Below, one piece after another: positions 351-44,643 of a DNA stretch of 64,000 nucleotides. Each line of letters opens with the position of its first letter. The stretch's first letter is position 1. The translations under genes and the position numbers were made by a program. The notes under the pieces were generated by a model, which was given only the letters and a program-made list of their open reading frames with translations, did no database searches and had not been told where the DNA came from. Origin of the DNA: a virus; IMG/VR virus record IMGVR_UViG_3300030331_002523, positions 1 through 64,000 of that record; one strand, given 5' to 3'.

Positions 351-3300
351 ATGGCTAAAAAACGTCAACAAAATAGTAAGAGAACACCAAGCACTTCTAG
401 TGTAAATACATCTACTCCTATTAAGGGTATGATAAAAGATGTAGACAGTGCATACTTTAGTAAAGAAAACTGGTGGCATGCACGTAATCTTGCTAATAAT
501 TCTATAGATGGTGATACAGGAGTTGTAGGTAATGAACCTGCTAACTTGGCTTGTGGTGAGGTTCCATATACAATAATAGGAACAATTCATTTGTATGGTG
601 ATAAGTGGGTTTTATATGCAACAGATGATAATAATAGTGAGATAGGATTATTTGATGACAGCAAGTGTGAATACACAACTCTTGTTAATGCTCCTTGTTT
701 AAATTTTAATAGAAGAAATTTAATAATAGGTGCAGCAAAAGAAAACTTTGATTGTACATGGCAAGTATATTGGGATGATAATTTGAATCCATCTAGAACT
801 TTAAATATTGATAATGTTCCTTATATACAACAGATAGTTTCCGGTCCTGGTGATCCTTGTATTATATATGAAGATACAGAGCAACTTGATTGTGAAAAGT
901 TAAGATTACATCCTTTAATGGATATGGCATGTTTAAGATTAGAAAAGGCTGATGAAGGTGGTGCTTTATTAAATGGATCTTATCAAGCATTTATTGCATA
1001 TTGTGATAATGCACAACAAATAGGAGATTATTTTACAAACTCTAATATTACAAGTGTATGGTCACATGAAAATACTAATTCATCTATAGTACTACATTTA
1101 GATGGACTAGATACTGACTTTGAATTTTTTAAGTTAGTAATAAGAGAAAAAGTTGCAAACGCAACTAGAAATATTGAGTTTGGTGTTTATAGTACTGAAA
1201 CAAAACGTATTCCTATTGATTTTATAGATCCTGAATTACCTACAATAGATAATGTAAAGTTGTTACTAGATAATCCTGTATTTGAAAAATCAGCAGGTAT
1301 GTTTGTTGTAAATGACTATTTAATTAGATCTCAACCTACAGAATATTTTGATTTTAATTATCAACCATTAGCTAATCAAATAAAAACATTTTGGACATCT
1401 GTTGAATATCCAGAAGATTATTATAAAAATGGTGGTAATAATCCAACCTTTTTAAGGGATGAGCAATATGCTTTCTTTATAAGATTTATTTATAATACAG
1501 GTGAATTTTCTAAATCATATCATATACCAGGAAGAGCACCAAGACAGTTATCTAATGGTGGAACAGAAGATGGCCCAGCAGCAGCAAATACTATTGATGG
1601 TAGTGAAAAAAATTATAATGTATATAATACTTTTACATCTTTAGGATTAGGTGATCCATTTCTTGCAAACTTAATTGGTACAACAACGCCTGATGGTGGA
1701 TTAGTTACAAATGGTGGTGAGATGGGTTTTTGGCAATCAACAGAACTTTATCCACAAACACAACCGGAAAGGTATAATGCTTCAGCACATCCTTGGTCTA
1801 ATCCAGGTACAACAGAGTTTGATCTTTGTGGTTTACCAATAAGACATCATAAAATTCCTGATGAATCTGAAGCTGCTATTAGTCCATTAACTGGTAACAA
1901 CTCTACAGCATTATTTAATCCATCAAATTCTACTATAAATGTATTGGGTGTTGCTTTTGATAATATTGCACCTCCAGTAGATAATGATGGTAATATTATA
2001 GAAAATATAGTAGGTTATCAAATTATGGTTGGCTCAAGAGATGGTAAGAAATCTATTATAGCCAAGGGTATTATAAAGAATATGATGAGAGCCCGTAAGG
2101 ATAGAAATGATGAAGATTATAGACTCCTTGTACCTAACTATCCTTATAATGATTTAAGAATGGACCCTTATCTATTAGATAGAGGTCATGGTAATAGATC
2201 AGGAGAACCATGGTATGCACAATTAGCTGGATGGGATACTTCTGTAGAAGATAACTGGCAAGCAGGTAATACTAATATATCAGATGGTCCTCAAAGTATG
2301 GCTGTCTCATCTATAAATGTGGGTGTTAATAATCCAGGAATCTTTTTTTTACAAAACCCAGATTATGGTCCAGGTAAGTTTGATGAGAATACATATACTT
2401 TTCATTCACCAGATTTAAATTTTACTAAAACATATTTAAATCCTACAGAAGTAAAAGTATATAAAAATATTTATGGTAATGTTACGGGAAGATTTAAAAC
2501 AGTAGAAGGACATACACAACACAAGCTTTTAAAAAATAAAGTTGTATTACTTGCAGCAATATATGGTGTAGGTTATGCAATTATGAAAATGAGAGGAGAA
2601 CGTAACTATGCATTAAAAGGAACACGTTCACATTCAGTAGGGGAGTTTGGTACTTATGCTGTAGGATCAGGTACTCACGGTTCACCATTTCCTGGTGTTG
2701 GTACAGGTTATGGTGCTCTAAATGCTGGTGCACAAAATTTGACACAAGCCGGTGCCCTTACAACAGAATACTTTGCAGCAGGTGTAGTTGATGGAGTTTC
2801 TATTTTAGGTGGTGCTTCAGAGGCTAGTAAAGTACATCTTGGAACACAACAACAAGCACAATTAGGAGCAGCTTTACTATCAGGTGGACATCAAGGACCA
2901 GAGTTTAATATGGAGTTTAGAGATTCAGAATTTAATGCAGTTCCTGGTGTTGGTACTTTTATTACAGGTATACTAACATTTATAAACTTTGTTGCTATAG
3001 GTGGTGATAAATTAGTTCAACTAATATTAGATTTAGTATCTTTTCAAGATTATGCTTTAAAATATATTTCACATGGTTTTTATCAATTTGAAAATCCAGT
3101 TGATAAAAATGGTACTTTTAGAGCAGGTATAGATAGGGCTAGATATATAAAACAAGCATTGCAATCATTTGATGGTGATAATGTAGTACATAATTTATTA
3201 AGACCATCAACAGTTGTTTTAAGACATACTCCAGGAATTAGATTAAATCCTGTACCGGATAATTTTTTAGATAATACTAAATTTACATTAGGAGCAGGTC

Positions 3301-6300
3301 CTTGTGCAGGTTTAGGTAATAATGCTGCAAATTGGTGGCAACATGGTGAAGAGATTAGATCTAGATGTTCAACTAATTATGTATCAATAAAAAATCAAAT
3401 AGATAATCAATATGGACAGTTAGATAGTATTATTCAATTGCCTATATTTGGTTGTACTACTTTATATCCAAAGGATGAGGAATCTGGACAGTTGCTTCCT
3501 TTTGATCAAGATAGTAGATTTAGTACACAAGTTCTATTTGGTGGTGACTCATATATAGCAAGATATACAGAAAAAACAAATATGCCATTCTTTTATCAGT
3601 TTTTAAAAGATGATGAAGAACGTGGTTACCAATGGAATTATTCAAGATATGCAAATGTACCATTTCCAAGATATTGGTACAATTCTGAAAAATACCGTAT
3701 GGGTGAATTTGTTAGACCTATTACAGATTTAGATTTTAACTGGACTGGTGCATTACCTGATGGTATGTATAATTTAGATACAGCTGAAAATGGTGGTTAT
3801 TGTCCTGATGGAGGTCCTGAATCTGTAAGTTTTAATGCTAATTTTGATGAGTTAGGAGAAGGTAACCCGCTTGGTGATCCTGTAGGAAGTGGAGGTACAA
3901 GTGCAACTACAATATTTACTCCTGTACCGCTACCTGCAAGTGGTGCTATAGCTCCATCAGCAAATAATACTCCGGAATATGTTGTAGGTGCAGAAGCACA
4001 AAGATACTTGGTATATGATATACCTTCTGGAAATCTTGAAACTGGTCAATTTACATTAATTAAAAATGCAAACTTAGTTTCTATACAGTCTACCGGTTCA
4101 ACTATAACTTTAAGATATCCTAATGCAACTGCAGTTGATCAGGCTGTGAGAGATGAACTTATTGATTTGGGTATAACAAATGCAGAGGTAACTATAGATC
4201 TAACTTTAAATTTAAATATTCCAATACCATACACTACACCATTTGGATCTGGGTCTGGTAATTGTAATATAGATACTCATGTTAATACAATTTTTGGAGG
4301 TGGTGGTTGTACAGATACGTATGATGAGTTAACAACAAATACAGGGGGAACAGCACAGATGGAGGGTACTATAAGTGGTGTTAGAATTATTTTTGACTGG
4401 CAGAGTATGACTGTAGTTGGTATAACTAATGCTGCAGGATATACTATGGCTGGTGGAGGAGCAGGGACAGCTTATGCATCTAATCAATATAGTTCAGCAT
4501 CAGGAAATAATAATCCACAAACACTTTCTCCATATACAGGAACGCCTGTTCCTACTGATGACAATTATAGTCTTATAAATTTTTCAAGTAATTCTTATGA
4601 TGATGCATCTTCTGGTTGTGTATATCAATTAGCAGCTAATACTATAAGAGTTGTCAATGGATTTGCAAGATGTAGAAATAGTGGTTCTGATGCTGATGAA
4701 ATAACAATGACATTTAGTGGTGTTGATAATAATACTTCATTAGGTAGTGGTGCAACAACGGGACAAACAAATTATGATAATAGTATATATAATCCAACTA
4801 ATTATCAGGGTGCAGGAGGTAGAGCTACAGGTGGTATGTTTGTATGGAAATATGGATATATCTATACTCATAACTCTGGTATTAATGATTGGTATGTTGA
4901 AACAGATTTAAATCTAGCTTATAGGGATTATGAAGATGTAAAGAGAAAAAGGCATTATGATAATGATGATTATACAGATCTTGTAGAATTGTTTCACTCA
5001 CAAATAATTGGATTTGATAATTATTATAATTATGATAAGTCAGTGAGTGTAAGAAGATTTTGGAGTGTTTCTTTTTCTAAAATACAAGAAAGATGGTATG
5101 ATCCTACTGTAGCAGAACAATGTTTTACTCAATATCCTAAACGACTAATATATTCTGTACCTGCTACAGGATTTATGGATGCAGCTAGAATGACAAAGAA
5201 AAATGATAAAGCTATTGATTTCTGGAGAGTTTTCTTAGCAGAAAATTTTAGAGACTTTAAATCTCCTATTAATGCAATAGTTCCTTTTAATCAAACTGGT
5301 GCATTAATGTTATTTCCAACATTATCACCTAGAGTTTTTCAAGGTGTAGATAAATTACAATTAACAAGAAAAAAAGTTGTTATTGGAGATGGAGGTTTAT
5401 TTAGTCAAGTATTACAAAACGCAGCTAACTCTAATGTATCACATGAGTATGGATCATGTGAAAGTTTTAGGAGTGTATTAAATACACCACAAGGTGTTTA
5501 CTTTGTATCACAAGCTCAAGGTAAAATATTTTTATATCAAGCAGGTAGAGGTCTACAAGCAATATCAGATATAGGTATGAAATGGTGGTTTAATAAATTT
5601 TTACCATCAAGATTATTAGCAGATTTTCCAGGTGTAGAAGATTGTCCAGAATTTATAGATAATCCTGTAATTGCTGCAGGTATTAATACAGTTTATGATC
5701 CTAATGATGACATAGTGTATTTCTGTAAGAGAGATTATAAAGCACATGATCATGTTTTACCTTGTATAGATTTTATACCATGTGAAGGGTTTGTATATAA
5801 TGCTACAACATGTGATGGTGCAGAACCACAAGTACAGTGTCCAGATGGATATTCATTTGTACCAGGATCAGTAACATGTCCTCCTGGAGCTCAATTAGTA
5901 TACCAAGACCCAGATACTCCTGTATGTATAATTCCAGGGGCTGGAGGAAATCCAGTACCAGCAACTGTTGTAGAAGATCAATGTTGTCAAACAACAGTTG
6001 AGCCAGCTTTATTTACAACAGAACCTGTAGAGATTGACATTGTTTTTGCTATTGACTCATCAAATAGTATAGATCAAAATGGTAATACTGCTGGTATGAT
6101 TAATATTATAAGTGATCTTGTAGCTGCATTAGGAGCTGCACAAAATACTAATGGAGAGATAAGAATTGGATTTGTTCATTTTGGATCAGGTAGAGCAGAT
6201 ATAAATGGTAATTTAGCTGGTATTACTGCACCTGTGGGTAATGATACTATGTTTAATGAATTTGACCAACAAGCACTTTCTGATGACTTTTCAGCAAGTG

Positions 6301-9300
6301 GCCCTTTATTTACATACATAAATAATATATATAATCATGCAGTGACTACACCAGATAATCCTAGTGGTACAGATGTAATTGGAGGTATATGGGCTGGCTT
6401 AAATATTTTATTTGGATCAAGTGCAAGACCTAATGCAGAAAAAAGATTAATTACTTTAGCAGATGGTCCACAGTTTACAAAAAATAATGGAGCTGTTTAT
6501 ACAAGTCCAGTTGATGTTCATGATGCAGCAGGTGTAGTATTTCCAGCTACCCCTAATGTAAATATTGGACCTAATAATGAAGGTGTAAATAATATATATG
6601 ATACGCCATTATCAACAGCGGGTGCATGGTTTAATACAAATGTAAAAAATAATCCTAACTATACACATTTAAAATCTTACTTTATAGGATTAGATACAAA
6701 CCAACCTAATCCATCTCCTCCTCCTACAAGTATTATAACTACTCCTAATGCAAATCAACAAACATATTTTTCACAATTTGCAAATGATAATGGTACACCT
6801 ACAGCAAATGATACTTATACATTTTTTGGCACTGTGCAAGATCCTGACTCAGTTCAAGAAATAGTAGATGCAGTTGTGGACAGTGTTATACCTGATCCTA
6901 ATTACTATTGTCCTGATCAATCATGTGATCTAGTTGCTATGCCAATAGGAGCACCAGTTTGTAGATGTGTAAATTGTGTTGATCCAACATTAATTGATGT
7001 TACATTTCCTATAGATTTACAAGATGAACAATATTTTAAAGATGTATCATGGACTGTAAGTTATGATCCTAAATCTAAAGCATGGATATCTTTTCATGAT
7101 TGGCACCCAGAACTTACAATGAATAGTATAAATCATTTTTTAACTACTAAGTCTAAAGAAGGTGAGGTTCCTATTTGTCCTCCTGGTGCTACATGGAATG
7201 GTGTTGAGTGTTGTATATCAGCATTTCAACAAGCTCCAGCAGTGCCTATTATTAATGAAATATTAGCAGAAGTAAATACAGTACCTACTGGTCAAGTTGA
7301 ATCACAAAATTTAGATATTATATTTGCAGTAGATGTATCTGCTTCTACTGCTAGTGGTGGTGTACAAAGTCTACAAAGAAATTTTGTACAGAATATAATT
7401 AACAGTTATGATTTTTCTAGTGGTACTGTAAGAGCTGGAGTTGCTACTTGGAGTGCCACAGGTGGTAATAATGTACTGTTATCAGGTTTAACTACTGATC
7501 AAGCAGCTTTAATAACAGCTACTAACTCATATGCTGTTGGTGGTGGTACTAATTATAAAAATGCAATAGAGGCAGCAAATAGTGTTGTTAATAGTGTTGA
7601 TGCAGATACATTAGCGGATACAGTAGTTTGTATTATGATTACAGACTCTGACGTAGACAGAAATTCTACATTAAATACTTCACCTCTTATTAATTATAGC
7701 AATTTATTTACAGACATAAAAGTTGTAATGGTTCATCAAGGTGATGGTGCAGGTTTTGTAGGTTTTGGGTGTGATGATACTTCATGGCAAAGTAGAATTG
7801 CTGGTCTAGTAGATAGATTTGTTTTACCCGATGTACCAATTCCTATGACTCTAGTGGGTAATTCTTATAACGGTTTTAATGATGGTAGTACCCAGGTTAT
7901 ATGTAATGCTCCTGATGATAATGCTAATCTGTATGAGGTAACTTCTTGTACTGATTGCGATGTATGTAATACATGTTTTCAAAATGTAGCAGCACAATTA
8001 GTAAATGCACAATTAACTTGTGGATGTCCTCCTAATACAATACCTGATCAAAATCCAGCTAATCCACCATGTGAAAATATAAACAACCCTCCATTGTGTG
8101 TAGTAGATTGTACTTGTCCTCCTGGATATGTATTAGTTGGAACATGTAATAATTCTGCTGCCCCTCCTATTTGTAGATCTGTAGATTGTGAATGTCCTCC
8201 AAGTGAATCTCTTGGGTTACCTAGTGGGGTAACGCCAACTGCTACGGGTGATTGTTCACAAGAGTTAGTAGAAACTATAAATACAACAACTATAGAAAGT
8301 ACTGTAGCAGATGGAACAAATGTTGGACAACAATTATTTTTTACAAATCCTGGATTTAATGGACCAACTGGTTTAGAAATAACACCTAGTCCATGGAATA
8401 GAGGATATCAATGTAGAGATAGTGCTTGTGTTGGTGGTCTAATTGATCCAGATCAAGGTAACATAAAAACTATGACTGCAGATACTTTACCAGTTATAAC
8501 AAATTTACTTGGAGAGCTTGTTGATGGTACTCCTATTGTAGTTAGTTCAAGTGTTGGTGGGAATTTGCCTCCATATGAGGGAACTTCATATTTAGGATTA
8601 GTAGAGTTTAAAAAGGCAATTTGTTGGAGAGGTCTTGGAAATCTTAGTACTGTTTGTTGTGGACAACCATTTGGAGCAGAGCTATTTACTAATGGACCAC
8701 CTACATATTATCAAGAGGGAAGTTGGCAAGAACTTTTAGATGCAAATGGTCTACCAACTGAAATGGAAATGAATTTAGAATATGTAGGAACAGTGCAATT
8801 AAGTCAAATAAGTGATCATACGCTACAAGGTTTTCAGCTTGTAGAAAATAGTGAGGAGTATACCCCAGGCTATGATGAATTTTCAGATCCACCTAATATA
8901 TGTTTAGATCTTCCAGTTGAAAGCACTGCTTCACAAAATCTGGATTTTGCTCCAAGTCTTGAAATTTGGGGTGGTACACATTCCCCTTTATCACAGGGTG
9001 AGAACTACAAAGGACATCAATTTGGTTATCCATTAGGTACAGATACTGTAGGTTATAGTAAACTGTTATGGAGATCAGGTCCTGTTACTTCAGTAGATGA
9101 ATGGACGGAATATCAATATAGTTTGAATGTAAATGATTCTGATGGCTCTATAGAAGCAGCGCATGGAAAGTTTAAATATATATTTATTAAAATACAAATT
9201 GTACGTGTAAGTGATGGTCAACCAGCTGGAATTCCTGCTACAAGACAATATGCTGCAAAGTATTTAGCTGTAGATGGTTTAAGTAATCCTAGACCACCTA

Positions 9301-10013
9301 GTATAGAACCTGAAACAATTACTACAGTTTCTACAGAAAGTGTTATAACAAATGCTACAATATGCACATATCAAACAGAAATTTGTACTCCACCAAATTA
9401 TACAACAGGTGGTATATGGAGACATAACGTAAGAACTGATCTTTTTGCTAACTTCTATGATATTCAGTATCCTTGGGAGGTAGATATAATAGAAACAACA
9501 GGTCAGACTGTAAATACATTAAGAAGTGTAGAGTATCATTTAGAATCATATTTTTATAGTGAAGATCAATTAAACAGATTTCATGATCTAGATTATAATT
9601 TTGATGAAGCTATTATTTACAACTCAGAACAAATATCAGGATTATTAAATCTTGTTCTTACACCTAAGAATAACACACCTTTAACAATGTTATATCCTAT
9701 TTTTAATGCAAATAGTATTGATATTTTATTTAGTAAAGAAGAGCAGAAATATAGATTTAACCAGTTTTTTGATGTAACAAATGACAGAGGTGAGTTTTCA
9801 GGTGCTATAACACAAATGTTTGAGACAGAACAGAATGGTTATATTATAAATTTAAATCAAGCTAATTTAAATTATAATAAACCACAGCATGAGAGAAAGA
9901 AGTTTAGACATTACTTTAATCATCTTATACTTAGAAAATCTGCTGATGCAGCAATGACAAGAAAAATGTTATTGAGATTAGAAAACTTTAAATTAAACGT
10001 ATCCTTTAGATAA
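351..10013 (+). CDS. Giant tail/virion protein with two von Willebrand A domains (3220 aa)
   Basis: The N-terminal part (about residues 25-160 and onward) has short repeated beta-strand segments like the propeller-type tail tubular proteins of podoviruses. Two hydrophobic stretches lie near residues 728-745 and 865-895. The middle is Gly/Asn/Thr-rich. Two vWA domains follow. The first (about 1890-2145) has a full metal-binding MIDAS set: D1902-S1904-S1906, T2007 and D2038. The second (about 2317-2490) has D2328-S2330-S2332, T2400 and D2432. Each is bordered by Cys/Pro-rich segments with CPPG-type motifs, EGF-like in spacing. The C-terminal 250 residues look like a conserved structural domain ending in basic and aromatic residues. 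The gene shares its last base with the next start (TAATG). A role at the host-contacting tail, with vWA domains binding protein or glycan ligands through a divalent metal, is inferred. Confidence 0.75.
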   Translation: MAKKRQQNSKRTPSTSSVNTSTPIKGMIKDVDSAYFSKENWWHARNLANNSIDGDTGVVGNEPANLACGEVPYTIIGTIHLYGDKWVLYATDDNNSEIGLFDDSKCEYTTLVNAPCLNFNRRNLIIGAAKENFDCTWQVYWDDNLNPSRTLNIDNVPYIQQIVSGPGDPCIIYEDTEQLDCEKLRLHPLMDMACLRLEKADEGGALLNGSYQAFIAYCDNAQQIGDYFTNSNITSVWSHENTNSSIVLHLDGLDTDFEFFKLVIREKVANATRNIEFGVYSTETKRIPIDFIDPELPTIDNVKLLLDNPVFEKSAGMFVVNDYLIRSQPTEYFDFNYQPLANQIKTFWTSVEYPEDYYKNGGNNPTFLRDEQYAFFIRFIYNTGEFSKSYHIPGRAPRQLSNGGTEDGPAAANTIDGSEKNYNVYNTFTSLGLGDPFLANLIGTTTPDGGLVTNGGEMGFWQSTELYPQTQPERYNASAHPWSNPGTTEFDLCGLPIRHHKIPDESEAAISPLTGNNSTALFNPSNSTINVLGVAFDNIAPPVDNDGNIIENIVGYQIMVGSRDGKKSIIAKGIIKNMMRARKDRNDEDYRLLVPNYPYNDLRMDPYLLDRGHGNRSGEPWYAQLAGWDTSVEDNWQAGNTNISDGPQSMAVSSINVGVNNPGIFFLQNPDYGPGKFDENTYTFHSPDLNFTKTYLNPTEVKVYKNIYGNVTGRFKTVEGHTQHKLLKNKVVLLAAIYGVGYAIMKMRGERNYALKGTRSHSVGEFGTYAVGSGTHGSPFPGVGTGYGALNAGAQNLTQAGALTTEYFAAGVVDGVSILGGASEASKVHLGTQQQAQLGAALLSGGHQGPEFNMEFRDSEFNAVPGVGTFITGILTFINFVAIGGDKLVQLILDLVSFQDYALKYISHGFYQFENPVDKNGTFRAGIDRARYIKQALQSFDGDNVVHNLLRPSTVVLRHTPGIRLNPVPDNFLDNTKFTLGAGPCAGLGNNAANWWQHGEEIRSRCSTNYVSIKNQIDNQYGQLDSIIQLPIFGCTTLYPKDEESGQLLPFDQDSRFSTQVLFGGDSYIARYTEKTNMPFFYQFLKDDEERGYQWNYSRYANVPFPRYWYNSEKYRMGEFVRPITDLDFNWTGALPDGMYNLDTAENGGYCPDGGPESVSFNANFDELGEGNPLGDPVGSGGTSATTIFTPVPLPASGAIAPSANNTPEYVVGAEAQRYLVYDIPSGNLETGQFTLIKNANLVSIQSTGSTITLRYPNATAVDQAVRDELIDLGITNAEVTIDLTLNLNIPIPYTTPFGSGSGNCNIDTHVNTIFGGGGCTDTYDELTTNTGGTAQMEGTISGVRIIFDWQSMTVVGITNAAGYTMAGGGAGTAYASNQYSSASGNNNPQTLSPYTGTPVPTDDNYSLINFSSNSYDDASSGCVYQLAANTIRVVNGFARCRNSGSDADEITMTFSGVDNNTSLGSGATTGQTNYDNSIYNPTNYQGAGGRATGGMFVWKYGYIYTHNSGINDWYVETDLNLAYRDYEDVKRKRHYDNDDYTDLVELFHSQIIGFDNYYNYDKSVSVRRFWSVSFSKIQERWYDPTVAEQCFTQYPKRLIYSVPATGFMDAARMTKKNDKAIDFWRVFLAENFRDFKSPINAIVPFNQTGALMLFPTLSPRVFQGVDKLQLTRKKVVIGDGGLFSQVLQNAANSNVSHEYGSCESFRSVLNTPQGVYFVSQAQGKIFLYQAGRGLQAISDIGMKWWFNKFLPSRLLADFPGVEDCPEFIDNPVIAAGINTVYDPNDDIVYFCKRDYKAHDHVLPCIDFIPCEGFVYNATTCDGAEPQVQCPDGYSFVPGSVTCPPGAQLVYQDPDTPVCIIPGAGGNPVPATVVEDQCCQTTVEPALFTTEPVEIDIVFAIDSSNSIDQNGNTAGMINIISDLVAALGAAQNTNGEIRIGFVHFGSGRADINGNLAGITAPVGNDTMFNEFDQQALSDDFSASGPLFTYINNIYNHAVTTPDNPSGTDVIGGIWAGLNILFGSSARPNAEKRLITLADGPQFTKNNGAVYTSPVDVHDAAGVVFPATPNVNIGPNNEGVNNIYDTPLSTAGAWFNTNVKNNPNYTHLKSYFIGLDTNQPNPSPPPTSIITTPNANQQTYFSQFANDNGTPTANDTYTFFGTVQDPDSVQEIVDAVVDSVIPDPNYYCPDQSCDLVAMPIGAPVCRCVNCVDPTLIDVTFPIDLQDEQYFKDVSWTVSYDPKSKAWISFHDWHPELTMNSINHFLTTKSKEGEVPICPPGATWNGVECCISAFQQAPAVPIINEILAEVNTVPTGQVESQNLDIIFAVDVSASTASGGVQSLQRNFVQNIINSYDFSSGTVRAGVATWSATGGNNVLLSGLTTDQAALITATNSYAVGGGTNYKNAIEAANSVVNSVDADTLADTVVCIMITDSDVDRNSTLNTSPLINYSNLFTDIKVVMVHQGDGAGFVGFGCDDTSWQSRIAGLVDRFVLPDVPIPMTLVGNSYNGFNDGSTQVICNAPDDNANLYEVTSCTDCDVCNTCFQNVAAQLVNAQLTCGCPPNTIPDQNPANPPCENINNPPLCVVDCTCPPGYVLVGTCNNSAAPPICRSVDCECPPSESLGLPSGVTPTATGDCSQELVETINTTTIESTVADGTNVGQQLFFTNPGFNGPTGLEITPSPWNRGYQCRDSACVGGLIDPDQGNIKTMTADTLPVITNLLGELVDGTPIVVSSSVGGNLPPYEGTSYLGLVEFKKAICWRGLGNLSTVCCGQPFGAELFTNGPPTYYQEGSWQELLDANGLPTEMEMNLEYVGTVQLSQISDHTLQGFQLVENSEEYTPGYDEFSDPPNICLDLPVESTASQNLDFAPSLEIWGGTHSPLSQGENYKGHQFGYPLGTDTVGYSKLLWRSGPVTSVDEWTEYQYSLNVNDSDGSIEAAHGKFKYIFIKIQIVRVSDGQPAGIPATRQYAAKYLAVDGLSNPRPPSIEPETITTVSTESVITNATICTYQTEICTPPNYTTGGIWRHNVRTDLFANFYDIQYPWEVDIIETTGQTVNTLRSVEYHLESYFYSEDQLNRFHDLDYNFDEAIIYNSEQISGLLNLVLTPKNNTPLTMLYPIFNANSIDILFSKEEQKYRFNQFFDVTNDRGEFSGAITQMFETEQNGYIINLNQANLNYNKPQHERKKFRHYFNHLILRKSADAAMTRKMLLRLENFKLNVSFR

Positions 10014-13000
10014 TGAATAAACCATATAAAATAGGAAAATCTAATATAGAAGGTCAAGGTCTTATTGCAGCAATGGATCTTAAACCTGGTGATCTTATTG
10101 GTCTAAGTCATTCTAATGGTGAGATTGCATCAGAGATAGGTCAATATTATAATCACTCTGACACACCAAATGCTGTAAGTGCATTAGTTGGTGGTGATAG
10201 ATATGTAATTGTATCTGAGAATATATCTATGGGAGGTGAGATTACAGTTGATTATAGAAAACAACCTGAACTTGGGCAACCAGAGGATTTTATAAAAAAA
10301 ATGCAACCTGGTGGTCCAGTTATAATTAATTTTAGTAAAAAACTTTTAAAGAAGGTTGCAAAAGATAATAGATATTTACCACTAAAAAAATTAGATAATG
10401 TATTAACTAAAAACTTTAATACAGGTGAACAGCTTGTATTAGCAAATGTTTTAAAAAACAATCCTAATCTTATTCAAAATGATTTGGTTGATTTAAAACG
10501 GTTAGGAGATCTTGCAAACACGGATTTGGAAAAATCTTTACCTAGATTTACTAAAGTAGATGTAAATACTGATGATGTAGGTAAGGTTACTTCTAATTGG
10601 AAAAGTTTAGAAGCAGATGGTGCAGATTTTGGAGCACATAGATTACCTGAGCTTATGCCAAGTCAATTTAACTACGGATTTGGAAATGTCTTTTCCTATA
10701 GAATGCCAGGTACAAATAGATTTACTCCATTAAATTATTCTTTTGCTATGCCTCAACTTTTTACTAACCCTAGATTACCAGCTCATCATGATGGTCTACA
10801 TTTAATAGATGATAAAGCAATAGGATGGTTTAGAGGTTTAAGTGATGCACAAAATCCAAATAGATACTTAGCACAAGAGTTTCAAATGGATCTTGGAAAA
10901 GATAGGCAAAATACATATTTAGCAGAGAGATTAGATATGGGTTATAAAAGACCTAATACTCTATCACTAGGTTTACCAGGTAGACTAGAGAATCAAAGAA
11001 TAAATTATGCTCATATGATTAAAAGAGTTGATCAACAGCATCAAAGAAAACTTGATGAGTTTTATGATAAAAAAAGACAAAAAGAAATTTTAAAAACTGA
11101 GTATAATAATAAATTTGGTTTAGATGAATATAAAGGAGAATTAAATGACATTGAAAATAGGCTAGTAAATTTAAACTATGAGATATCTGAATTAGGTATG
11201 AAACTTGGTGATTCTAGATTTACAGAGTACATTACTCCAAGAATTAAATCTATTAAAAATCCTTTACAGGCAAGCAGAATAATGCAAAGTCCATATATGA
11301 CTTTACATAATGAAAGTCTTAATTTTTTAAGAAATAAAGGATTTAATGAGATAGTTATACCTGATGCAAAAACAATTACAAATATACAAAATTGGCCATC
11401 ACCTAGACAAGGAACATTAGATCTATATACTAGACTTAGAAATAATCCTATGTTAAAACAAGGAGATCCTTTTAAGTTTGATGAGTATGAAGGAACAATT
11501 TTTAATATTTTAGATAAACCATACAAAAGATTTAAACAGGATGGTGGTGAAGAAAATAATGAAGAATTATTTTCTATAAATAAATATAATGAAGTTATTA
11601 CACCTGAAGAATATACAAATGAACAGTTATTTGATTTCTTAAAAAATAACTATAATACAATTGATACATCTCAACAACAACAAGATCTTTTAGCAAAGTT
11701 TAGAACTCCTACTTTTTTAAATAGATATAAAAAGAATTACTTTAATATTACAGGTGAACAACTTGATGATGATCAAGCAATAAAGAATATATCAGAACAG
11801 TATGATTTTACTTCTAAAGGAGCACCTTTTCATGTATCATTTCCATTTGTTAGATATAATCCAGAGGGATACAAACAGTCATATTCACCATATATACAAC
11901 CATATCATGATAACAAAAGAGTTATTTTTAGTCCACAATTAAAAGGTTTATATGCAGATCCTCCTAACTTTACTTATAGAACTGTAGAAACACCAAACAT
12001 TCCAGAATTAGCAAATCAATATTCATTTGTACCAATGTTATTTAATAAAAGAAGTATAGATTCAATGGTAAGTGATGGTAGAGATGTAAGACCTTTTAGT
12101 GATGCAGATGAAACAATAGTTCATGAATATGCTCATTCATATAATACTGAAGATTCACCATTGTTTAAATCTATAGCTAATTTACTTAATAATCAAGATG
12201 ACTATGCTTATAAAGGGCCAGGTAAACGTTATAAAGGTTGGTTAACTAATTTATTTGGTGAAGAGTATTTTGATAAAGAGAAAAATCCATATGGTGAGTG
12301 GGCTATGCAACCAATGGAGATAAGTTCTATGAGAGCTGAGACTGAAACTAAATTAAAAGATGCAAATATTTGGGATCATACAAAGGGGGAATTTGGTATG
12401 GATAATTTAAATGCCATGTTAAAAAATAAATTTAATATGGAAGAAGGACCTGGTTATCATTTAAATCTTTTAGGTTATGGTGATTTACAACAAATAAGTA
12501 CAAATAAGCAGAAAATAAACAGAGAATATAAAAATGCATTACGTGATCTAGAGTCAAGTGGTGCTGATTCTGACAGAAAAATAGATTTTATAAAGTATAA
12601 TATATTAGAAGATTATGATGGAAATCCTAGAACTGATACTAGAGTAAATCCAGATCTTAAAAGATATTCATATGATAGTATAGATATAGATACATTTAAC
12701 AAGATATTATCAAATAGTCAAAGTGACATAAAAGAAAGAAATAGATATGCAACTTATGAGGACTTATTAAACGATTATAATTCTGGAAGAAAAAAGAAAA
12801 GAGAAAGAGCAGAATCTGTTCTTAATACTTTATATGATGGTATTAAAACTGAGATAGGTAATATATACAATCCAAAAATTGAAGAACAAGAAAATATATT
12901 AGAAAAAAAGAAAGAAGAAGTTTTACCCAAAATGGATAAATATTTTAATGAGATTGCAATGGAGGATCAGGAGAGTGATACTAGGCTAGCTAGATATGGT

Positions 13001-13927
13001 ACAGAATTACCTTTAGCACAAGACGGTACAGAAAAAAAACCTATGTTTGATTTTATGGGTTACTTTAAAGGAGAGCAAGGTTTAATACCAGATCTATATG
13101 GAAAGACTACTAAAGATACCTATATGGAAAATAAAGATGCTATTCAGAAAGGTGCAGATGTAGTTGCAGCAAGTGGTCTTCCTTTTGTATCTCAAGCTGC
13201 TAATGTAGTTAGCACCGGTATTGATTATGGTGATGCAGCTATGGCATATGCACAAGGTGATTATGATACAGCAAAAAAAGAATTTGCTCAAGGAACTACA
13301 GGTTTTGCATTAGGTATTTTACCAGGTGGTAAGGCAATTAAAGCCGCAACAAAAGGAGTAGGAGAATCAATAGTAAAAGGTGGTATTAACACAGGAGTAA
13401 AGTATGGTGCAAAATCAGGTGTTAAATCTGGAGTACAAGAAGCTGTTGATACAATAGTTGATACTAATACTCAGAAGAAGAATATAGGTGATGTAGTAGA
13501 AAATACTGCTTCAAATAGTATGGCAATGATGGGAGGTGAAGTATATAGATATGAAAGATCTCCTTTTAAAGATGGTAAGTTTGTTATATCAAATCCGGAT
13601 GATCTTATTATACAAATAACAAAGACAGAAATGTTTACACCTGAATTTAAAATGGGCGGTGTTGTTACAGCTGATGGTTTTACATTAGAAAAGAAATTTG
13701 ATAATAAAAGAAAATTACCTTTTATACAATATTCAAAAGAAACAGATGTAGAAGGTAGAGTGTATTATGATAATACAACAAATGAAATAGTAGATGTTAC
13801 AACTTTAGAATTAAAAAAGAAAAGAAAACATAATAGAATTAAAACTATTATTGATAAATATGAATCTGGAAAAGAGTTATCTAGACTAGAAACTGATGCT
13901 TTAAACTCTTTAGGGTTATTAGATTAA
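10013..13927 (+). CDS. Virion protein with N-terminal SET-like domain and zinc metallopeptidase motif (1304 aa)
   Basis: Residues 1-85 resemble a compact SET domain (protein lysine methyltransferase fold): a G14-x-G16 turn, the N47-H48-S49 motif followed by P52-N53, and a closing Gly-Glu-Ile-Thr-Val-Asp-Tyr at about 75-81. The middle is long and Asn/Tyr/Lys-rich. A zincin motif H704-E705-Y706-A707-H708 follows, with an acidic Met-Arg-Ala-Glu segment near residue 778 that could supply a third ligand. Charged coiled-coil stretches lie near 950-990, and a Gly/Ala-rich, weakly hydrophobic region spans about 1045-1165. The start overlaps the stop of the tail gene. Position in the giant-gene row suggests a particle-borne protein injected into the host. 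Enzyme activity of either domain is not proven by motif alone. Confidence 0.7.
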   Translation: MNKPYKIGKSNIEGQGLIAAMDLKPGDLIGLSHSNGEIASEIGQYYNHSDTPNAVSALVGGDRYVIVSENISMGGEITVDYRKQPELGQPEDFIKKMQPGGPVIINFSKKLLKKVAKDNRYLPLKKLDNVLTKNFNTGEQLVLANVLKNNPNLIQNDLVDLKRLGDLANTDLEKSLPRFTKVDVNTDDVGKVTSNWKSLEADGADFGAHRLPELMPSQFNYGFGNVFSYRMPGTNRFTPLNYSFAMPQLFTNPRLPAHHDGLHLIDDKAIGWFRGLSDAQNPNRYLAQEFQMDLGKDRQNTYLAERLDMGYKRPNTLSLGLPGRLENQRINYAHMIKRVDQQHQRKLDEFYDKKRQKEILKTEYNNKFGLDEYKGELNDIENRLVNLNYEISELGMKLGDSRFTEYITPRIKSIKNPLQASRIMQSPYMTLHNESLNFLRNKGFNEIVIPDAKTITNIQNWPSPRQGTLDLYTRLRNNPMLKQGDPFKFDEYEGTIFNILDKPYKRFKQDGGEENNEELFSINKYNEVITPEEYTNEQLFDFLKNNYNTIDTSQQQQDLLAKFRTPTFLNRYKKNYFNITGEQLDDDQAIKNISEQYDFTSKGAPFHVSFPFVRYNPEGYKQSYSPYIQPYHDNKRVIFSPQLKGLYADPPNFTYRTVETPNIPELANQYSFVPMLFNKRSIDSMVSDGRDVRPFSDADETIVHEYAHSYNTEDSPLFKSIANLLNNQDDYAYKGPGKRYKGWLTNLFGEEYFDKEKNPYGEWAMQPMEISSMRAETETKLKDANIWDHTKGEFGMDNLNAMLKNKFNMEEGPGYHLNLLGYGDLQQISTNKQKINREYKNALRDLESSGADSDRKIDFIKYNILEDYDGNPRTDTRVNPDLKRYSYDSIDIDTFNKILSNSQSDIKERNRYATYEDLLNDYNSGRKKKRERAESVLNTLYDGIKTEIGNIYNPKIEEQENILEKKKEEVLPKMDKYFNEIAMEDQESDTRLARYGTELPLAQDGTEKKPMFDFMGYFKGEQGLIPDLYGKTTKDTYMENKDAIQKGADVVAASGLPFVSQAANVVSTGIDYGDAAMAYAQGDYDTAKKEFAQGTTGFALGILPGGKAIKAATKGVGESIVKGGINTGVKYGAKSGVKSGVQEAVDTIVDTNTQKKNIGDVVENTASNSMAMMGGEVYRYERSPFKDGKFVISNPDDLIIQITKTEMFTPEFKMGGVVTADGFTLEKKFDNKRKLPFIQYSKETDVEGRVYYDNTTNEIVDVTTLELKKKRKHNRIKTIIDKYESGKELSRLETDALNSLGLLD

Positions 13928-13944
13928 AATTAGTTTATATTGCG

Positions 13945-13968
13945 TTTTTTTAGTATATTATTATTGTA
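13945..13968 (+). promoter_or_regulatory. Candidate promoter with GTATATTAT motif
   Basis: The 63-bp gap between the 1304-aa and 845-aa genes is one of the few real gaps in the + strand giant-gene block. It holds a T-run followed by GTATATTATTATTG at 13953-13966, about 25 bases before the next ATG. Near-identical motifs occur at 46622, 54076 and 55818. A promoter role is inferred from the recurrence and the position. Confidence 0.4.
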
Positions 13969-13990
13969 GTACAAATTACAGTCAAAAAAT

Positions 13991-16528
13991 ATGGCAAGAA
14001 AGAAAAAAAATAAAAAACAACAAACTTTTAATGTTTATCCATTTTTGGCTGAATATGGTATAACTACTGCAAATTTACCAAAAGCACAGAAGGGTGTAGA
14101 ATTTACTGCACAAGCTCCTATTTATAATGCAATAGGTGAATGTGTTATGAATTGTACAAAAGTAACTATGCAGCCACAAAGTGATTTTGAAGTTGGACTA
14201 GGATTCTCAGGTGGTAAAACTTTGGATGATAACTATACAGGAAGTGGTAAATTAACATCTGGTTTATCTTTTAATCCTAGAGGTGGTTTAGGTGGTGTAG
14301 ATGGCTACTTTGGAGGTAACTTGGGTGCTAGAGCAACTACAAATGAAAGTACTGCTAGTATAGATCCTTTTGCTAATCTTGTAGGACGTTTTGGATATTC
14401 AGATAGATTACCTCCTCTTAACAGACGTAATAGAGTTGGTTTACCTATAGCTCTTGGTGCTTTTGGTCAAAAAAGTCTTATGGGTAATGAAGGTGATTTA
14501 GCTGGTTTATATGGTCAACTAGGTAACTTTAATGTAACAGGTGGTTATAACTTTAACACAAAAAGTCCTCAGTTTACTGTTGGTTTTGGTATTCCTATTA
14601 GAGAAGAAGGTGGAGATAGTGGAAAAGATGAAAAGAGTTTTATAGAATTGCAAAATGAGATGATGGATGCACAACGTGCTTCAGTTCAAAATGCACTTGG
14701 TTCTCCTGTTCCTGCATTTGCAAATACTAATGCTTTTAATTTAATTAATTTGATTTCAGGAGTTGGTAAGTTTGCAGATGATGCAAAAGCAGGGTTTCCT
14801 AATATGATTAATCCAGCAACTGGTAAACCATATGAAAAAAGTAATTTTGAAAAAATAACTGTTACTAACCCAACAGGTGAAAATAGATTATTAAATACAA
14901 AAGTTCTTAATGAATATATAAAAGGAAATAAAGAAGACAGAAGTAAAATCAGTCAAGATGAATTGTGGAGAAAACCAAATGAGGTTAGAGCGGAATATTA
15001 TAATGCTGCTATGGCTGATAGACAAGAATTATATCCTGATATGTTTTCTAATTCTTCTATGGATTTAGATGGTAATATTTCTTATGATGATATAACTGTA
15101 CCAAATCCAAATTATGATGAAGAACTATTTAAAACAACAGGAGATCCTCAATATGGTCCTACAATAGTTGAACCATTTGATTTAGAAAAACATGGAACTG
15201 AGTTTGATAAGGCAGAACAAAATTTAGCTGATTATAATGTTGATTATTTTATTTCTGATGATGAAGGTGTATTTGATCCAAATAATATCACATTCCAAAC
15301 ATATAAAGAAGGTCAACCAGTTACTGAAGCATATGATCCAACAAAAAATTATAGAGATCATACTATAACTACTAACGTTCAAGAAGATATAAATAAAGAT
15401 TATGTAGATGAACAAAGATTAGGAGGTACAATAAGATTTGGAAATGGTGGTGACAATAAAAACCGTAAGGTAGTAAAAAATTATGCAAAAGATTGGGGTC
15501 TTGATAATAGTGCTGTTAGAGATATATTATCTAATTTTCCTAGTTTTAATGCAGAAACTGATACTATTATTTCAAGTGTAAATCCTAATATAGGAGAACT
15601 AGGTTATCAAAATATGGATGATTATATTGCTCAACTTTTACAAAATGCAAATAATGCAGGATTTAATTTTGATATAACAGGTGGACGTGGACAGTTACAA
15701 AATGTTCCAACTCTCTATGGTGGTGCAGGTTTTGCACAATTTTCTAAACCTATGTTACAAGGAGGAGGAGGAACACCAGTAGATCAAAATTTTCCATTGA
15801 TAGATTCTGATGGAGATGGTATTCCAGATAGTATTGATGCAGACTCAGGTGTAAACGCACCTATGGGTCCATTTCCTGAATTTGATCAAGACGGTGATAA
15901 TATACCTGATCTTGTTGAAGCACCAGGTCCAGATAATCCACAAACACAAGAACCATTTATAGGACCTATGAATCAAGAATCACAAGAACCACAACCAGAA
16001 GGAGATCCTGATGATTTAGGAATAGAAATTGATAAAGGTAATTTAAATACAAGATTTGATAAGTTTCTTAAAACAAGTAAGTTTGCTAATGTTTCAGATA
16101 GTTTTGTAAGAAATATAGGAGAACCTTTTATTGATTTTGTAGGAGGTTTAAAAAGTGGTTTTGATACCAAAATGAACAGGTTTAGGGCTGAGGAAGATAA
16201 TGATGAAGCTATGGACTTTATGGCTGTAGTAGAATCAACAAGAGATGCTAAAGGTGATAGAGAATTTAGAACAGGTAGTACAAAACCTTTTACACAAACA
16301 CAAGAAGAAATATATGGACAGTTAGCACAATTGGGAGGACAACCTACAAATCCACAAGCAGGTCCTGACTTTTCTATGTTAATGCAATATATACCTACTC
16401 CTACTACAATGAGATTTGATGAGATATATTTACAAAAACAAATGGAAGATGGGGGACAAATAGTAGATGTTGATATAGATACTTTAAAAGAATTAATGGC
16501 TGCGGGAGCAGATATTGAAATATTATAA
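13991..16528 (+). CDS. Virion-associated protein with glycine-rich barrel-like N-terminus and TSP3-type calcium repeats (845 aa)
   Basis: The start is very basic (MARKKKNKK). Residues 55-200 are Gly-rich with alternating polar and aromatic residues, like a porin-type beta-barrel. A long Asn/Asp-rich middle follows. At D605 begins the Asp-Ser-Asp-Gly-Asp-Gly-Ile-Pro-Asp pattern of thrombospondin type 3 calcium-binding repeats, with a second, looser copy about 30 residues later. The C-terminus (about 815-845) has a Gly-Gly-Gln...Ala-Ala-Gly-Ala-Asp-Ile-Glu pattern. The next gene begins 2 bases after its stop, and both belong to the row of giant virion genes. No enzyme motif was seen. The family is not recognised with certainty, and a particle or cargo role is inferred from neighbours. 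Confidence 0.6.
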   Translation: MARKKKNKKQQTFNVYPFLAEYGITTANLPKAQKGVEFTAQAPIYNAIGECVMNCTKVTMQPQSDFEVGLGFSGGKTLDDNYTGSGKLTSGLSFNPRGGLGGVDGYFGGNLGARATTNESTASIDPFANLVGRFGYSDRLPPLNRRNRVGLPIALGAFGQKSLMGNEGDLAGLYGQLGNFNVTGGYNFNTKSPQFTVGFGIPIREEGGDSGKDEKSFIELQNEMMDAQRASVQNALGSPVPAFANTNAFNLINLISGVGKFADDAKAGFPNMINPATGKPYEKSNFEKITVTNPTGENRLLNTKVLNEYIKGNKEDRSKISQDELWRKPNEVRAEYYNAAMADRQELYPDMFSNSSMDLDGNISYDDITVPNPNYDEELFKTTGDPQYGPTIVEPFDLEKHGTEFDKAEQNLADYNVDYFISDDEGVFDPNNITFQTYKEGQPVTEAYDPTKNYRDHTITTNVQEDINKDYVDEQRLGGTIRFGNGGDNKNRKVVKNYAKDWGLDNSAVRDILSNFPSFNAETDTIISSVNPNIGELGYQNMDDYIAQLLQNANNAGFNFDITGGRGQLQNVPTLYGGAGFAQFSKPMLQGGGGTPVDQNFPLIDSDGDGIPDSIDADSGVNAPMGPFPEFDQDGDNIPDLVEAPGPDNPQTQEPFIGPMNQESQEPQPEGDPDDLGIEIDKGNLNTRFDKFLKTSKFANVSDSFVRNIGEPFIDFVGGLKSGFDTKMNRFRAEEDNDEAMDFMAVVESTRDAKGDREFRTGSTKPFTQTQEEIYGQLAQLGGQPTNPQAGPDFSMLMQYIPTPTTMRFDEIYLQKQMEDGGQIVDVDIDTLKELMAAGADIEIL

Positions 16529-38884: not shown

Positions 38885-41800
38885 ATGGCAGTTTGTTACA
38901 ATAGAAATACAGAAGAATACAAAGCTCTAAAGACAGAGTTTAAAAGTCCTTTTATTGTAGATTCAATAATAAGAGATTATCAAATTATAAATAAGAATGA
39001 TAATATTCCTACTGTTGAAGAGGCTCTTGAGGTTGTTAATGATCAAAAATCTATTAACAAGATAACTACAAGAAAAGCTGTATCAACTATTTACGCAAAC
39101 TTAGTGTCTAAAGGTTATGTCTATCAAAGAGGTAATAAGTATTATGTAACTAATAATAGTATACAAGTTGCTAAAATTGCTGCTAAATATCTTGAGACAG
39201 CAGGATTTCCTAAATCTACTTTACAAGTAAGAAAGGGAGCTAATATAATGGAAGCTGTTGTTAATGACTCAATAAACTATGGTGATATTATAACTAATAT
39301 AAATATAGATCAAGACAGAACACACACTGTAAAAGTATTAGATGAATTAACTAAGAAAGTCCAAGGTCTTAAATATGCTGTAATGGATTCAGCTACTGCA
39401 GGTGCTCTATATAAGATGTTACCAAATGAAGTAAAACAAGATGTTCCATTTTCAGAAGTAAAGTCTTTTTTCTATGATGGTGCTGCTATACTTATAAAAG
39501 GAAGAGTAAATAATGCTGTAGCACTTGAGGAAGTATTACACCCTGTGGTTGAATCTTTTTACTTAGATGATATAGAGCTGTTTAATAGATTTGTAGAAGA
39601 GGTATCACCAGAAATAAAAGAAGAAGTAGAAGAAAGATATTCTGCTCAGAGAGGCTTTACTGAGAAAGAAAGACAGCTAGAGATGGTTACTAAAGCATTG
39701 AGCCAACATTTTAGTGGTGAAAGACCTGCTACATCAAGATCTTTCATTCAGATTATGAATGATTTTCTTAAATGGTTTGCTGATGTAATTAGATCATTAT
39801 ATAAAAAACTATCAGGTAAAACTCTTAATTTATCAGACTCAGTTATAAATTCTTCAATGAACTTATCTGATCTTGCAAGAAAACTTAATACAGAAGATTT
39901 ACAGTTTGTATTAAATCCAAAAGCATTACAACCAGAAAAGGTGAGATATGCATTATCACCACAGAAAAAGACTGTGCTTAATAATATAATTAAACAACAT
40001 AGTTTTCCTGTTCAAAAGATGTTAATTGAAAATTTATTTCATGGGGTTGCTTCTGCTAAAGATAGATTTAATGATTTAGCTGCAGCACAGGTTGTATTTG
40101 TAGATGGTAAGTATGAGAATGTAGAAACTGGAGAAGAATATAGATCAGCACGTGAAGCTCTAATGGGTGATCAGTTTGATAGTAGCTTTGATGTAGAAGA
40201 AGTTTTTGGTGAAGATCTTAGTAAAGTATTATATGGTGCTGTATTAGGAACATCATATGAAACAATTGAGAAAGGTTTTACTAAAATAAGCAGGGGTAAT
40301 CAAGAAGTTGAAGCAATGTATAACGATCTTGTTACAAGGATTGATACCATGAAAGATTTAGATAAGTCTGTATTTATACCAGAAGTAATTATAGCAGACC
40401 ATACAAATAAGATAGCTGATACTGTACATATCCTTAAAGTGGACAGATATGGACAATTTACACCAATAAATTTAAGAATTGGTAAAGTAAGTAAAAAGTC
40501 AAAAATATATAGAGATAGAACAGAAGCTGTATCAAATACTAGTTTATTCTTTGAAGAAGGTGCTGAATTTGTTCTAACACCAAAGATGCAAGACAACCTT
40601 AGATTAGGAGTGCAAAGAAGAATGTTTGAAAACTTAGGTTATGTCTTATCTGATGCTGGTACTACATTCCACGTACAAAAGAAAGGTAACAACTATATAA
40701 TAGAAGACACAACATTACATATGTTATCTGAGAATGAATATCTAATTAATCAGGTAATGCCAGAAAATGTTGATGAAGAGAATGCTGCTGTTATTGATCA
40801 GATATTAAGTATAGATAGAAACCCTGAGATTGATGTTACTTTTGATGATTTTGAGGTAGAAGATGTACCAGAGATTGGTGCTGATATGTTTGATGCTCTT
40901 GTACGTGCTCTTACAGACTTTAGAAAAGGTTTAATATCTAGAGAACAGGCTTTGACAAATGCAAGGAATGTGTTACAAATGGATAAGTCTAGGGCTCAAA
41001 TGCTTAAGGAAGTGGGCATGACTAGAACATTAATAGAGCAAAATATTAATGATCCAGATGAAATTACCAGAGTATACTTTGAAATAGTAAATGATAGTAT
41101 AAAACAAATTCAAGAGTTTAAAGAATATATAGGTGATCCTGATAACTTTAACAAACCAGAGTATATAACAAGAGTATTATCATGGCAAAAATTTGTTGAG
41201 AGCTATAGAGGGTTGGCTAATATTGCTGAGTCAGAAGGATTAAGCTCAAATCAAAAGTCTAAGATTATTGAGCTTATTAAAGAACTAAACAGCTTAGTTG
41301 GTGTAAGAAGAGCTGATGGCACTATTGTTGAGTCAGGACAATTTGACTTAGCAATAAGAAATTATATAAAACAATTTGTACGTGATAATTCAAATCAAGA
41401 TTTTGATAATGAAGATCTTGAAGAACTATTAAATACTGCAAAAGATATAGGTTGGGGAGAACAAAATTTATATGATTTAGATGGATCAAAAGATACTTTA
41501 CTTGCGCTTATGGCTAAGAAGTATAAGTATGATCAGCAAACAATAAAAGATAGAATTGAAGCACGGATACCAAGAATTCAAGCAGCAACACTAAAGTTAA
41601 AACAAGCTAATGGTGGTAGATTAGACAAGAATGCGTTTGATTTTATGATTCAAATGATTGATGGTAAAATGACTGGTAGGTATGTGAAAAAAATAGGAAG
41701 TATATTTTACCAACAACTTAATGAATTAAATCAAAAACTATATGATGATGAAGGAGGATGGAAACAGTATATAGAAATAGATGATCTTGCTGATGCTACT

Positions 41801-44568: not shown

Positions 44569-44643
44569 AAGAAGATAGATATAACTCCAGCAATTTATAT
44601 AGCAGTAATGGTTGTTATGTTTGTGATAGGTACTTTTATATAA
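44566..44643 (+). CDS. Possible 25-aa single-pass membrane peptide
   Basis: A short frame begins MKKIDITP and continues as one hydrophobic segment of about 17 residues ending in Gly-Thr-Phe-Ile. It fills most of the gap between the 1872-aa gene and the end of the oppositely oriented reductase, overlapping the reductase stop by 8 bases. The charge pattern (basic N-terminus, then a clean membrane segment) looks like a genuine mini-gene, similar in style to the small membrane peptides on the minus strand of this window. It is too short for certainty. Confidence 0.35.
   Translation: MKKIDITPAIYIAVMVVMFVIGTFI

Follow-up and report, generated by a model that had tools for sequence, protein, structure and literature searches.

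The window, the whole stretch of DNA analysed here, is 64,000 nucleotides long and covers bases 1–64000 of a virus record of 115,405 bases. Comparison with the PHROGs head-and-packaging families revealed TerL (phrog_6681, 1e-48), the portal (phrog_6547, 5e-94) and the major head protein (phrog_11589, 3e-26), three families which we take to be crass-type. Together with homologues of the muzzle protein and of gp49, these matches lead us to regard the virus as a crass-like phage. The locus and its landmarks are as follows.

351–10013, forward strand: muzzle-like virion protein with VWA domains, 3220 aa (phrog_37948, virion structural protein, 2.5e-42)
10013–13927, forward strand: the 1304-aa protein
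38885–44503, forward strand: homologue of phi-crAss001 gp49 (RNA-polymerase-associated cargo protein), 1872 aa (phmmer 2.2e-19)

The 3220-aa protein is homologous to the annotated Muzzle protein of csAssE-Sib, as well as to phi17:2 gp43 and a virion protein of the Cellulophaga phages phi17:2 and phi4:1. Its VWA match (PF00092, 4.6e-10) falls in two stretches, which is unexpected for such a protein type. Elsewhere in the window, an 821-aa protein (48227–50692, forward strand) carries a C-terminal Por secretion (T9SS) sorting domain (PF18962, 3e-14). This tail fits a Bacteroidota host, and the phage may make use of the type IX secretion system of its host. We also notice a short (619 aa) ribonucleotide reductase of the B12-dependent type at 44636–46495 on the reverse strand.

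The 1304-aa open reading frame lies where an earlier note on this DNA had placed it. Its start overlaps the stop of the preceding gene by one base, an arrangement that is also present in a sister contig, L013 (IMGVR_UViG_3300005074_000003). Translation of 10013–10270 gives GQGL, NHSDTPN and GEITVDY, the three signatures from which the note had recognized a SET-like domain, each at its claimed place.

10013–10270, forward strand: mini-SET domain, residues 1–86 of the 1304-aa protein (Pfam SET, AlphaFold2 model, Foldseek)
10052–10060, forward strand: GxG motif (GQG, residues 14–16), aligned with the G.G of MLL4 and vSET
10151–10171, forward strand: NHSDTPN (residues 47–53), the SAM-binding or knot motif of SET, with N47, H48, P52 and N53 invariant in 56 relatives
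10235–10255, forward strand: GEITVDY (residues 75–81) with Tyr81 at the catalytic position, E76 and Y81 being invariant in 56 relatives

Animals and plants use the SET domain to methylate proteins, and SET enzymes have been studied mostly as eukaryotic chromatin modifiers or pathogen effectors. The profile search and the structure prediction that the note had proposed as checks both bear out a SET domain at the head of the protein. When the first 86 residues are scanned alone, PF00856 matches residues 40–81 (E 2.1e-7, 31.7 bits against a cutoff of 22.4), and the whole 1304-aa protein still exceeds this cutoff (24 bits, E 5.3e-5). A profile built from 7 relatives retrieves MLL-type SETs (2.6e-12) and vSET (1.1e-10), and that built from 56 relatives finds SET enzymes in the PDB with E-values down to 1.7e-13. 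The AlphaFold2 model from the 56-relative alignment reaches a pLDDT of 94 and a pTM of 0.85. Foldseek returned 118 PDB matches for it at E ≤ 0.001, and the best 50 of the 118 are all SET or PR/SET proteins. The top match is vSET (3kma; E 8e-6, prob 1.00, TMq 0.70), followed by MLL1, a Plasmodium SET, SETD8 and PRC2, and a search of a viral structure library likewise gives SET proteins.

The Pfam profile aligns over its C-terminal half alone (positions 59–104 of 105), as might be expected of a chance similarity of motifs, or of an assembly artefact, with no SET homology behind it. The Foldseek alignments extend over 105–124 columns for a 94-residue query and thus span both conserved halves. The domain is not an assembly artefact, since the independent contig L013 carries its counterpart at the same place with 91% identity. 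Profile, fold and independent contig agree and refute this explanation, to which we give hardly any credence. On the basis of the Pfam, profile, AlphaFold2 and Foldseek results, SET fold and homology are solid, and we regard the homology of residues 1–86 as practically certain. Among other candidates, a weak SAF match (0.15) was set aside as beta-clip cross-talk, and Imm40, D5_N and other Pfam matches were rejected as below cutoff. NCBIfam contains no model that fits the domain.

Compared with solved SET enzymes, the domain is a miniature. In the alignments, GxG and NHS are 33 residues apart in the window, versus 54 in vSET and 66 in MLL4, and the spacings of its relatives are mainly 32–40. 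About 20–30 residues are absent between the two motifs. The SET-I insert, which is variable across the SET superfamily, is mostly missing, and the alignments indicate that most of the SET-I region has gone along with neighbouring strands. In known enzymes the SET-I region contributes to the substrate groove. Without it, an open groove is to be expected, one better suited to a flexible chain end or to a substrate that is partly unfolded. Post-SET cysteines, which occur in many but not all SET enzymes (vSET and the PRDMs do without them), were not found, and residues 1–101 are free of cysteine. The claim of a SET-like domain therefore holds for the fold and the motifs of an active methyltransferase, but in a compact form that lacks both most of SET-I and the post-SET cysteines.

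Within the 56 relatives G16 is invariant and G14 is conserved in at least 90%, and the GQG turn presumably lines the SAM pocket. In both the window domain and L013, the positions checked for SAM binding and catalysis are intact. Meanwhile, the near-invariant RTP of the family, just before GG[FY]xNH, is replaced by ASE in the crass versions, which makes the window SET a divergent member. Between the window and L013, dN/dS is approximately 0.36 over the SET domain, and over the last 120 residues of the protein it is 0.25; both values come from small samples, and the former suggests that the domain is maintained by purifying selection. A catalytically dead SET or beta-clip fold, serving as a binding or virion-attachment module, would account for the absence of SET-I and the loss of RTP in the crass versions, and PR-type SET relatives with little activity exist. 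Such a decayed domain would not be expected to keep SAM and catalytic positions that are invariant or nearly so among relatives, nor to be apparently under purifying selection. We therefore consider a dead fold unlikely, and from the retained positions we think it likely that the mini-SET is active.

Beyond the SET, the 1304-aa protein is built of modules, and annotated phages offer no match to this part.

10292–10315, forward strand: module boundary 1 (IKKMQPGG, aa 94–101); L013 has KAQDGG here, followed by a module of ~200 aa that is absent from the window
10316–11548, forward strand: module 2 (aa ~102–512), 71% identical to L013
11531–11554, forward strand: module boundary 2 (FKQDGGEE); in L013 the C-terminal module comes directly after FKQEGGEE
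11570–13006, forward strand: zincin-like module (aa 520–998), with relatives in L002/L096, L093 and L094
12122–12136, forward strand: HExxH motif (HEYAH, aa 704–708; VHEYAH), the invariant H185, E186 and H189 of a 4-sequence alignment
13004–13027, forward strand: module boundary 3 (ELPLAQDG, aa 998–1005), with the same LPxAQxG signature as between L096 modules
13028–13924, forward strand: C-terminal module (aa ~1006–1304), common to relatives, 67% identical in L013 and 43–47% in L099

Module 2 has no match in Pfam or PHROGs, and the zincin-like module none in Pfam. In the four sequences of the latter, HEYxHSYN and a downstream E.SS are invariant, and the model built from them (pLDDT 57.7) is too poor for fold assignment. 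The L013 protein (1018 aa) and the window protein have SET, module 2 and the C-terminal module in common. Relative to L013, the window protein lacks the ~200-aa module after the first linker and gains the zincin module of ~480 aa. The breaks fall at KMQPGG/KAQDGG, FKQ(D/E)GG and ELPLAQDG, which we refer to as ‘xAQxGG’ linkers. Of the fusion of SET to a zincin motif that the earlier note described, the HEYAH is present, but it belongs to a separate, exchangeable module that is missing from L013, where the SET is kept. Orthologues in L093 and L099, also encoded right after the muzzle homologue, have another head module with no SET there. The SET thus appears from these comparisons to be an accessory, exchangeable head module.

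Module exchange also occurs outside the SET. The L093 orthologue (9419–15745, forward strand, 2108 aa) contains three LysM repeats and several more modules. In a 2658-aa protein of L096 the zincin module recurs alongside weak kinase/APH-like and DUF3990-like stretches, and GGEL(P/E)KAQ(F/K)G separates modules at four places. The LPxAQxG signature (GGELPKAQFG) occurs 3 times in the large proteins of the phage itself, against a mean of 0.017 and a maximum of 1 after shuffling, and in relatives it recurs between modules or near the N-termini of large proteins. The signature might mark a site of processing or serve as a tag for packaging. Its sites are listed below.

Window, 13004–13027, forward strand: LPxAQxG site at aa 998–1005 of the 1304-aa protein
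Window, 13991–16528: LPxAQxG site at aa 29
L008: LPxAQxG site at 18582
L096, 2658-aa protein: LPxAQxG sites at aa ~690, 971, 1371 and 1785

The position of the gene bears on where the protein resides. For phi4:1, the GenBank notes mark gp35 and gp37–gp43 as virion proteins on MS/MS evidence, so that nearly the whole block consists of virion proteins detected by MS. The muzzle homologue of that phage is gp42 and the gene right after it encodes gp41, both of which were detected by MS/MS. For phi-crAss001, PMC10172136 describes the products of the genes after the muzzle as cargo that is kept in the capsid and tail and is believed to leave ahead of the DNA, and reports that gp49 was found in virions by MS. 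We consider the 1304-aa protein a candidate cargo protein because its gene follows the muzzle homologue. The note had called it a virion protein; a large protein in a virion-protein gene block is indeed what we find, but its virion status comes from position and from the MS data on its phi4:1 equivalents. Judged on these two grounds, it is quite likely located in the virion, and we lean slightly towards its being ejected into the cell.

Mini-SETs are widespread. A profile scan confirmed at least 431 IMG/VR relatives among the 600 pattern matches listed, and a scan of one-per-species genomes confirmed the domain in 210 bacterial contigs. Profile-based scans were needed to find them, as whole-protein and single-sequence scans of IMG/VR gave one relative each. 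With several hundred phage and bacterial contigs carrying this type, the domain is no rarity imported from eukaryotes. Of the 80 IMG/VR loci kept, 57 encode stand-alone proteins of < 140 aa and 21 encode proteins of 200–320 aa, most of which have a cupin-like part at the N-terminus, for which Pfam support is weak. Among the 80, fusion to a modular protein of > 1000 aa, as in the window, is found only in L013. In PHROGs, the window domain matches phrog_34170 (4e-7) and phrog_28741 (5e-4), as do 54 and 51 of the 56 relatives, respectively; both families are labelled ‘unknown function’.

The tree separates a long-spacing from a short-spacing clade (support 100/99), its inner forks being poorly resolved in so short an alignment. 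The long-spacing clade comprises marine phages and bacteria such as SAR11, SAR86 and Marinimicrobia. In 11 of its loci, mostly of Marinimicrobia (L106, L108–L115, L118, L124), the SET gene lies directly before metK and ahcY, and in the Marinimicrobia-type loci inspected the stand-alone mini-SET overlaps the metK start by one or a few bases. This is an apparent SAM-cycle operon with SAM synthetase (metK) and SAH hydrolase (ahcY), a context that fits a SAM-using enzyme, though in a clade other than that of the window. We also notice that many SAR11/Pelagibacteraceae genomes (L116–L181) encode a 142–146-aa SET protein of the mini-SET type, whose gene neighbours either those for alanine dehydrogenase and a GcvT/FAD-oxidase or that for a Rieske oxygenase, and that the Formosa SET gene neighbours argG/argC/class-III aminotransferase genes. 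These amino-acid and methylamine gene clusters might indicate that the mini-SET methylates a small amine or a free amino acid rather than a protein, and the loss of SET-I would take away the peptide groove. However, the clusters again come from the other clade, such an enzyme would hardly be expected on a phage cargo protein, and we know of no small-molecule SET enzyme. We regard this substrate class as very unlikely.

The window and L013 fall in the short-spacing clade among phage mini-SETs, mostly cupin-like fusions, and form a crass pair whose branch is long (1.4 changes per column). Given this branch and the replacement of RTP by ASE, the function of their SET may have shifted. In 23 of the 32 short-clade loci examined, the SET gene is immediately followed, on its downstream side, by a homologue of phrog_598 (‘DNA ejection’). 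In podovirus-type phages (L006, L014, L027, L041, L044, L086 and others), a cupin-like plus SET protein (phrog_34170) is encoded between the tail/closure genes and the phrog_598 gene. Both this adjacency and the fusion of the window SET to a protein of the cargo block would suit an active mini-SET that works at assembly and methylates lysines on ejection or cargo proteins of the phage itself, perhaps to aid packing or threading through the tail, instead of a host effector. Adjacency of genes does not make the ejection protein the substrate, however, and for polyvalent proteins the presumed time of action is after entry (PMC5512222). A role at assembly is rather unlikely, although it deserves more weight than a dead fold.

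We propose that the compact SET is a SAM-binding lysine methyltransferase module, exchangeable between phages, on an ejected, polyvalent-type cargo protein of a crass-like phage, with a probability of roughly 0.6. The observations behind this proposal are the predicted and profile-matched fold, the conservation of SAM and catalytic positions, the module exchange and the gene position; from them we infer activity, virion location, ejection and substrate. Residues 1–86 would bind S-adenosylmethionine and methylate lysine side chains, and the 1304-aa protein would be packed in the particle and delivered with the DNA like crassvirus cargo proteins. The substrate would be a host protein encountered on entry, or else an ejection or cargo protein packaged along with the enzyme. 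The ejection-gene neighbourhood of the short clade lends real weight to a fellow ejection protein. The earlier idea that host or particle proteins are methylated stands as a prediction.

Because mini-SETs are common in phages and those closest to the window's lie beside DNA-ejection genes, phages may methyl-tag proteins during genome delivery. A broader idea is that phages own a widespread class of mini-SETs acting on or with proteins ejected before the genome, as a cupin-like-SET gene in podovirus-type phages or as a polyvalent fusion in crass-like ones. We put this forward tentatively and would not bet on it. If it were true, lysine methylation would be a step of genome delivery or early host takeover.

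SET domains are already known from giant viruses, bacteria and, as automatic annotations, uncultured phages, and our literature search found no paper on phage SET domains. As far as we searched, three points are new: a family of mini-SETs that is widespread and lacks most of SET-I, the tie of one of its clades to DNA-ejection genes, and the use of the mini-SET as an exchangeable head module in a cargo-block protein of a crass-like phage. A stripped-down SET that keeps its cofactor and catalytic positions has been filed under ‘unknown function’ in hundreds of phage contigs. Should the domain be active, lysine methylation would become a part of phage entry that is open to experiment, and such a tiny natural scaffold could be used to ask what SET-I is needed for.

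Among known relatives, members of phrog_34170 and phrog_28741 are stand-alone proteins of ~100 aa or cupin-like plus SET proteins, unlike the > 1000-aa fusion of the window. A0A218ML49 from an uncultured virus, found in the viral structure library, is large like the window protein (971 aa; 38% identical, TMq 0.81) and is annotated merely as SET domain-containing. Polyvalent proteins (Iyer et al. 2017, PMC5512222) resemble the window protein in being large, multidomain proteins of a mobile element with HExxH and exchangeable modules. In our sequences, several distinct domains lie in one long polypeptide and are exchanged among L013, L093 and L099. No SET domain is listed in the passages of that paper that a text search brought up, and of the domains named there the window protein shows only HExxH. 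The cargo proteins gp45–gp50 of phi-crAss001 (PMC10172136) come from the same block of the genome, immediately behind the muzzle gene. Sequence comparison detects no homology between the 1304-aa protein and gp45 or gp46, which are thought to form the ejection channel. The closest solved counterpart is vSET (PBCV-1 A612L, PDB 1n3j/3kma), a viral SET methyltransferase of 119 aa. Its GxG and NHS lie 21 residues further apart, and it is a free-standing enzyme that modifies histone H3 of its eukaryotic host, whereas the window SET forms part of a phage cargo-type protein, with no histone to act on. Both are nevertheless viral, single compact domains with the same layout of GxG, NHSxxPN and ExxxxY.
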